Shown here in pieces: positions 8,984-50,394 of a stretch of DNA of 64,000 bases. The position numbers and the translations under genes are program-made. The notes below the pieces were generated by a model that saw nothing but the letters and a program-made list of their open reading frames with translations, had not been told where the DNA came from and did no database searches. Each line of letters starts with the position of its first letter. Within the stretch, counting starts at the first letter, position 1. Source of the DNA: Natrinema marinum (GTDB taxonomy: Archaea > Halobacteriota > Halobacteria > Halobacteriales > Natrialbaceae); contig NZ_CP100763.1 of the NCBI RefSeq assembly GCF_024296685.1, forward strand, positions 2,294,001 to 2,358,000, given 5' to 3'.

Positions 8984-9175
8984 CGAGGTCTTCGCGAGTG
9001 AAATGAGCGAATGGCTCGGAAGACGCACCGCGTCTTCCGGTGGATGAGTGAGTGACCGACGGGAACGAGCGTTAGCGCGGGACCGAAGGTCCCGCGAACC
9101 ATACGAACGGGGCAAAGCCCCGTGAGTAGAAATCGGTTGGGGAGGGTGTGGAAATCCCTCGTCGCCACGGTAGTG
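8984..9175. repeat. Dispersed hairpin-bearing repeat, long copy (B)
   Basis: Same family as 3990-4119. It contains three perfect hairpins: ggaagacgc/gcgtcttcc (9018-9038), cgcgggacc/ggtcccgcg with GAA loop (9076-9096) and acggggc/gccccgt with AAA loop (9107-9123). The last two lie in about 60 bases absent from copy A, either a hairpin-pair insertion here or a deletion there. ORFs through it differ in every frame and share no codon pattern with copy A, so I read it as noncoding or mobile sequence. It fills most of the gap between 8825 and 9278. Confidence 0.7.
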
Positions 9176-49500: not shown

Positions 49501-49593
49501 GGCACTGTCCAGTTTAGCACCTCCACCGGCGGTTGTTTGTTGAGTGACTGGTGCGGTCGCTGTGTGTTATGGTAGTGGACAAATTGTTCAAGC
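49501..49593 (-). mobile_element. Remnant of an IS6-type element (3' end of transposase plus terminal repeat)
   Basis: The plus strand begins ggcactgtcc, like the left end of the next element. On the minus strand it translates LEQFVHYHNTQRPHQSLN..., the transposase C-terminus, but the expected TAG is TGG, so the stop is lost. The copy abuts the fuller element at 49594 with no spacer. Confidence 0.75.
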
Positions 49594-49601
49594 GGCACTG
49601 T

Positions 49602-50335
49602 CTAGTTCTGCACCTCCTCGACTGGTACGTTTCCATCGAGAGCCTGATGCGGTCTCTGGTGGTTGTAGTAATGCGCGAACTGTTCAAGCCATTCTCTGGT
49701 GCTGGCCCGACTGCCAACCCAGGAATTATGGAAGCGGTTGATCCGCATTTTGAGGGTATGAAACCACTTTTCGAGGTGGTTTCGATCAACGTAGTCGAGG
49801 TGACCGCTCAACCCTACTCGAGAGAGGGCAGTCAGACAGCCAGCACCATCGACGAGAAACTCAGCGCCGGAGAGACCGTGGTTCTGGGCGAGTCCATGCA
49901 GAAACGCAGCAGCTGGATCGGTGCCTCGCCGACCAAAGGGTGCGACATCGAGAATGAGTTTCGTGTCGAGGTCTATTGCAGCGTACGTCCAAGGTCGATC
50001 GCCGTTACTCCTGACAGCGGTTTCGTCAATCGCGACCCGCGACGGCGAAGCCGTCCTCAGAACATGAGGTGTTCTGATGGGCCGCACGAGAGCGAAGCTC
50101 TCGTGGACGTCGGCGGGTTTGGCACGCTGTCAGCCAGCCGATGTACCCAGTGCCAGATTGCTTGATGAAAGCGTTCAGCGCCGAGTGAGCGACGAATTGC
50201 TCGTGTCTCCCGAAGCGAACATCCGATCGCGTAGAGCCGGACGGCGAACGCCCTGACGGGCGTCTCCGTCCGCTCTCGCTCCAAACAGTCATCAAATACC
50301 GCCGCGTAGCTCTCGCTGAGCAGGTCTGCGAGCAT
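49602..50335 (-). pseudogene. IS6-type transposase, frameshifted by a 56-bp insertion
   Basis: The 5' part (MLADLLSESYAAVFDD to about VHRLADSVPNPPT) is a helix-turn-helix N-terminus. The 3' part has the DDE motif: first Asp in RVAIDETAV, second in FLVDGAGCL, Glu in VDRNHLEKWFH, and ends AHYYNHQRPHQALD. Between them 56 bases (50052-50107) push the second part into another frame. Removing them would join PPT directly to ASPSRVAID, the order seen in relatives. The protein is therefore probably not made; the element may be mobilised in trans. Confidence 0.85.
50052..50107. repeat. 56-bp double-hairpin insertion inside the transposase gene
   Basis: Flanked by CGTC at 50052-50055 and 50108-50111, a candidate 4-bp target duplication. 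It holds two perfect hairpins: cagaaca/tgttctg (50058-50076, loop tgagg) and cacgagagc/gctctcgtg with GAA loop (50085-50105). The layout is similar to the two hairpins present in repeat copy B but absent from copy A. Confidence 0.7.
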
Positions 50336-50394
50336 TGTTCCAAACTACCTCTACGACCTGCTCGCTTCTCAAACTGCGCTACCTAGACGGTGCC

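Follow-up and report, generated by a model that had tools for sequence, protein, structure and literature searches.

We judge, at a probability of about three in four, that a 56-bp insert in an IS6-family transposase gene of Natrinema marinum is a copy of a gene-free, two-hairpin mobile repeat distributed throughout the haloarchaea, which enters RCG/hairpin targets and would move as single-stranded DNA by means of an enzyme supplied in trans. Comparison with related loci demonstrates, as far as sequences can, precise insertion, recurrence at the same site, a fixed orientation, a target preference and the decay of host genes.

The host gene lies on the minus strand, from 50335 to 49602 of the window (the whole stretch of 64,000 nucleotides analysed), and is interrupted at 50052-50107. 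An earlier note on this DNA had read these 56 bp as an insertion that frameshifts an IS6 transposase, and both the coordinates and the reading are right, with the correction that the gene is on the minus strand. Excision of the insert leaves a single open frame of 225 codons with no stop, and assignment to IS6 follows from the profile match, in which the IS6 transposase model NF033587 is split over the two parts of the gene: codons 1-76 (50108-50335, minus strand; 2.4e-11) and codons 77-225 plus the stop (49602-50051, minus strand; 4.5e-31). Pfam DDE matches of the transposase are under the gathering score. The whole IS6-family element, as read from the sequence, occupies 49594-50394 on the minus strand, with approximate ends GGCACTGTCTAG and the reverse complement of GGCACCGTCTAG. 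The insertion into this copy is recent, because the rest of its frame is intact. We note that a truncated end of a second IS6-like element (49506-49593) directly adjoins the copy.

On the gene strand the inserted element (50052-50107, minus strand), which is absent from collinear relatives and carries no gene, runs from TCCACGAG to TTCTGAG plus GACG. It contains the two perfect hairpins described in the earlier note: H1 (CACGAGAGC-nnn-GCTCTCGTG; 50085-50105, minus strand), which is 5' on the gene strand and has 9-bp arms and a 3-nt loop, and H2 (TCAGAACA-nnnnn-TGTTCTGA; 50057-50077, minus strand), which has 8-bp arms and a 5-nt loop here and, in most relatives, a 9-bp stem with a loop of 3 nt. 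Around the insertion the gene strand has CCCGCC GACG / TC-(CACGAGAGC TTC GCTCTCGTG)-CGGCCCA up to the end of the inner linker, and directly beyond it (TCAGAACA CCTCA TGTTCTGA)-G GACG / GC TTC GCCGTCGCGGG. The CGTC brackets that had been reported are present on the plus strand at 50052-50055 and again at 50108-50111. Folded as single-stranded DNA the insert region has a z of -4.1. Only two such hairpin pairs occur in the whole window, and ten 3-mer shuffles gave 0 or 1 each; the pair is beyond chance. A covariance model of the insert, R1, matches the window copy with 73.5 bits, and an Rfam search with the element found no matching RNA family. A second neighbouring perfect hairpin pair with 3-nt loops lies at 9076-9123 (CGCGGGACC-GAA-GGTCCCGCG and ACGGGGC-AAA-GCCCCGT), and its sequence is unrelated to the insert.

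Filled and empty sites among IS6 genes

A search for IS6 copies in 29 genomes of the genus recovered both kinds, some aligning through the insert and others splitting exactly around it with a 4-nt overlap, and at least 50 copies in Natrinema carry the two-hairpin unit at the identical site. The earlier note had predicted collinearity with insert-free relatives except for the 56 bp, and it is exactly these bases that are missing from them, with the 4-nt overlap at the junction. We aligned 83 copies, of which 53 bear the insert and 30 are free of it, and built a tree without the insert columns. Both borders are identical in all filled copies; the distribution of the insert on the tree needs 17 changes, of which well supported branches impose at least 10, and the hypothesis of one clade for its presence is rejected (p 2e-82). 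The nearest relative is insert-free for 29 of the 53 insert-bearing copies, and the host genes of some pairs that differ in the insert are very close (L017/L027, 96.9% identical; L014/L101, 97.1%; L010/L021, 95.9%). Conversely, identical 52-nt inserts occupy hosts that are only 62% (L009/L059), 68% (L033/L047) or 76% (L018/L054, L012/L039) identical. These inserts reflect gain and not an old shared insertion, because common descent would hardly keep 52 of 52 bases in diverged hosts.

Presence of the insert in all relatives, or borders that vary between them, had been named in advance as arguments against mobility. Many relatives do carry the insert, and at the same point, so that the first of these half applies, but the tree shows repeated insertion; the borders are fixed to the base. 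The proposition that such hairpin pairs move is thereby strongly supported, by precise filled and empty sites, by repeated independent insertion and by identical inserts in very diverged hosts. To judge from this sequence evidence, the hairpin pair is a mobile repeat, one whose insertions recur and are lethal to the host copy.

Within the IS6-site alignment the stems of H1 and H2 are conserved with compensatory changes and the 3-nt loops are free to vary. Hairpins that are otherwise identical often have as their loop either a given triplet or the reverse complement of it (TTC/GAA, AAA/TTT), an alternation that looks as if the stem-loop had been inverted. The element also exists in a longer form of 107 bp with four hairpins (H1, two further hairpins, H2); such relatives occur near position 1484 of L277, L289, L293 and L301, and are scattered over the IS6 tree too.

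Ends, target and orientation

Analysis of 84 distinct sites in 22 clusters gives an element that is usually 56 nt long, starts with T[TC]C and ends with GACG, with the same boundaries at all 22 site clusters. Where the left flank is not imposed it ends in CG in 15 of 15 clusters and at 80 of 85 distinct junctions, the tetranucleotides being GACG, GGCG, CACG, AGCG and a few others. In the window the target is GACG (CGTC on the plus strand), host bases 5' of the insertion at 50108-50111 (minus strand), and the second copy of the apparent 4-bp repeat is the terminal GACG of the element itself (50052-50055, minus strand; CGTC on the plus strand), which is kept at the right end even when the target is CACG, GGCG or AGCG. 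The rule indicated by these junctions is (R)CG followed by the element, whose own last four bases are GACG. The 4-bp target duplication proposed in the earlier note is thus real as a repeat at the window site and is not general: it appears in the IS6 gene because the target there is GACG, and elsewhere only CG or ACG is common to both sides, CG alone being constantly repeated. The ends of the element have at most CGTCC/GGACG in common.

Among the targets are two IS6 sites, the region of the RuvC motif in tnpB genes (VLG^VDLGVN), other repeats, and the terminal palindrome of IS605-type elements, CCCACG^GCTAAAGCCGTGGG (L079, L129, L209, L242, L265). At the window site the element sits in the 5' arm of a pre-existing host hairpin, GACGGC-nnn-GCCGTC (50041-50055, minus strand), which is present in nearly all insert-free relatives and whose 5' GACG is now split off by the element. 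More generally, the junction tends to lie 1-4 bp from the loop of a hairpin, within its 5' arm. Mean folding energy is -4.6 kcal/mol at the sites, compared with -3.1 for the remaining RCG of those loci (permutation p 0.0004), with empty sites represented by joined flanks and real empty copies existing for IS6 site 1; a stricter hairpin criterion holds at 11 of the 22 site clusters compared with 21% (p 0.002), half of the clusters failing it. All 42 distinct fills of the IS6 site point the same way (42 to 0), although the IS6 hairpin is nearly symmetric.

Movement and relation to known repeats

Single-strand transposition of the IS200/IS605 type involves elements with hairpins near both ends and no real inverted repeat, which insert 3' of a fixed short oligonucleotide. 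The element described here likewise has hairpins a few nucleotides from both ends and RCG as its left flank. We propose single-strand transposition for it because of its near-end hairpins, its insertion 3' of an oligonucleotide, its confinement to one strand, its length of 56 nt, and the want of a real inverted repeat or a constant 4-bp duplication. A 56-bp duplex would presumably be too short and too stiff to pair its own ends, whereas a 56-nt strand with two hairpins would not, and movement as single-stranded hairpin DNA is probable. The element inserts just 3' of RCG, often where the target strand already has a hairpin with that RCG in its 5' arm, and brings its own terminal GACG; in the window copy, entry into the GACGGC-nnn-GCCGTC hairpin caused a frameshift and inactivated an otherwise intact insertion sequence. 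The enzyme acting in trans may be HUH/Y1-like or another. Searches for a cognate transposase found none: there is no Y1 TnpA above the cut-off in its own genome and no Y1 transposase in several other genomes with many copies (G028, G023), and none of 30 Y1 loci scanned has H1/H2-like ends. The loci examined contain no autonomous, longer version that would have H1 at one end and H2 at the other; the scan of them yielded divergent copies, copies with four hairpins and a handful of chance matches, and nothing else. In L144/L159 an IS605 element has a look-alike pair of hairpins between its tnpA and tnpB, which was rejected as coincidental, since it lies inside the element.

The movement of REP-like and other short mobile repeats without a transposase is described as an open question in the parts of two papers on which we draw here (PMC3733652, PMC3119063). 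In the former (Di Nocera et al. 2013), CGTC-tagged REP dimers appear only in bacteria and have 4-5-nt loops and a CCA tail, and filled/empty site evidence does not figure in those parts of the paper. It is possible, if on the whole unlikely, that the haloarchaeal element is a true CGTC-REP, a REP/BIME-type dimer whose mobilising enzyme, a RAYT-like Y1 transposase, is now absent from the genome. Its right end is tagged GACG/CGTC, its dimers are head-to-head and its stems are of 9 bp; H2 bears CGTC, which is GACG on the gene strand, at almost every site, and the tag of H1 is CGTC or CGTT and consists partly of host bases. As in the CGTC-REP dimers so described, two adjacent palindromes with outward CGTC-type tags occur genome-wide with no dedicated transposase known. 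The loops, however, are mostly of 3 nt and the inner linker is TGGGCCG, giving a TGGG tail, as opposed to the 4-5-nt loops and CCA tail of that description (PMC3733652). Nor is there an associated Y1 gene.

Rickettsia palindromic elements (RPE) are in-frame insertions in proteins. Some are classed as CGTC repeats in the same parts of that paper (PMC3733652). The present element resembles them as a short palindrome inside protein genes, sometimes in frame (compare L090), and differs from them in sequence, phylum and size.

Closer in behavior is SMR-A of Haloquadratum walsbyi (HqIRS42, HqIRS43, HqIRS55), which in the relevant parts of Dyall-Smith et al. 2011 (PMC3119063) is about 110 bp long with prominent terminal inverted repeats, is described only in Haloquadratum, and has a mobilisation termed 'enigmatic'. 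Against that description the present element is likewise transposase-free and present in tens of copies, may likewise make no true target duplication, and it too invades other mobile elements, including the near-terminal palindromes of IS605-type elements at the five loci given above. SMR-A has no target duplication; here CG is always repeated, and four nucleotides when the target is GACG. The element differs in being of 56 bp, or 107 bp in its four-hairpin form, in lacking prominent terminal inverted repeats and in also entering the coding hairpins of IS6 and tnpB. Compared by description and not by element sequence, behavior matches SMR-A, and size and inverted repeats do not. PATEs, MITE-like derivatives of IS200/IS605, have ends resembling IS605 ends and, in the same parts of that paper (PMC3119063), share with our element a very short length (down to 52 bp), near-terminal palindromes, a short target oligonucleotide, the lack of terminal inverted repeats and perhaps that of a target duplication; unlike theirs, its H1 and H2 resemble no IS605 end examined here. 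We judge it to be a new, very widespread variant of the short hairpin mobile repeats, and not a proven member of SMR-A or CGTC-REP. Comparable mobile repeats were already known from one archaeon; in the present case the sequences themselves yield exact ends, target and many independent insertions. With one and the same target available in dozens of copies, filled and empty, the IS6 site reveals the exact ends, the target rule, the strand preference and what insertion does to the host element.

A more far-reaching reading is doubtful: that this gene-free ssDNA repeat family, which most genera of haloarchaea contain, homes in on the hairpins of a single strand, with transposase genes and transposon ends as its foremost targets, moves without a genomic Y1 transposase, and would in effect act as a genome-wide disabler of other mobile elements via a new mobilisation route.

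We consider it improbable that the element is an ordinary MITE moved as double-stranded DNA by a DDE transposase, with a 4-bp or a 2-bp CG duplication, or a serine-recombinase element with a CG core. Taken alone, the target and orientation data are compatible with either, CG recurs on either side of the element at almost every site, leaving a constant 2-bp CG repeat conceivable, and TYC...GGA could be a minimal inverted end. A MITE of this kind should have terminal inverted repeats and a duplication of constant length, but there is no real inverted repeat, the 4-nt repeat is not constant, 56 bp would be too short for a paired-end complex, and the orientation is single at near-symmetric hairpins.

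Spread among IS6 copies by ectopic gene conversion, and not by transposition, seems less probable again. Host and insert distances correlate (Spearman 0.43), and inserts within one genome are related (permutation p 0.02), although genome-specific subtypes (e.g. G006, G004, G017) are a modest signal overall. However, the identical inserts of L009 and L059 have flanking 60 nt that are 35-42% different, and the unit is found in unrelated sites (tnpB genes, IS605 end palindromes, other repeats and the second IS6 site), which already contradict gene conversion at non-IS6 sites.

Fate of the host genes and distribution of the element

Otherwise intact genes make up 7 of the 53 insert-bearing IS6 copies and 17 of the 30 insert-free ones (Fisher p 5e-5). 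The simplest reading is that insertion causes a frameshift and the death of the copy, followed by decay. Insertion of the hairpin pair is a very common way for haloarchaeal insertion sequences to lose their function and explains many annotated or missed IS6 'pseudogenes'.

Three in-frame copies are found in other genes. One, of 54 nt (L090, 1501-1554, genome G025), lies inside a fibrillarin gene (Pfam PF01269) and adds 18 residues (VQQTESAAAHQNSESSED); two others, of 57 nt, lie within tnpB genes (L087 and L260). A 55-nt copy at 1501-1555 of L088 (genome G019) frameshifts a metallo-hydrolase-like gene. Either a base has been lost there or the gene is dead, since removing the copy does not restore the frame.

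That the insert is skipped, as an archaeal BHB intron or by translational bypassing between the ACG/GACG copies as in T4 gene 60, leaving the gene functional, is most improbable: take-off and landing codons are identical, hairpins lie in the gap and some insert-bearing copies are otherwise intact (the window copy, L010, L017, L018, L035), but insert-bearing copies mostly decay, in place of the selection that a functional gene would be under, and both forms of skipping are rejected on this ground. Filled copies are, in addition, scattered tips of the tree, often beside insert-free sisters, the same unit occurs in non-coding palindromes, no RNA family was found, and the copies in the fibrillarin and tnpB genes have lengths divisible by three, as expected if they are translated.

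The mobile repeat extends well beyond IS6 genes and the genus. Model R1 has matches in every one of the 29 genomes searched in the genus and, within Halobacteriales, in 222 of 293 genomes and 72 of 87 genera, which, together with the non-IS6 sites, bears out the expectation in the earlier note that other genomes would have the 56-bp unit elsewhere. Hosts include Natrialba, Natronococcus, Haloterrigena, Halorubrum, Haloferax, Haloarcula, Halorientalis and a Haloquadratum MAG, in which the 56-nt unit is present (L307, L337), and a pattern scan of genome contigs for the hairpin pair returned 62 stretches. Genome G005 has about 60 model matches (e.g. L092, L131-L133), and those that were read lie within one larger repeated sequence (CCACAGCG^GTTCCAGACTCC). 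Some intergenic copies (L118, L085, L124, L245, L246) have T runs on one or both sides and are possibly used as transcription terminators.
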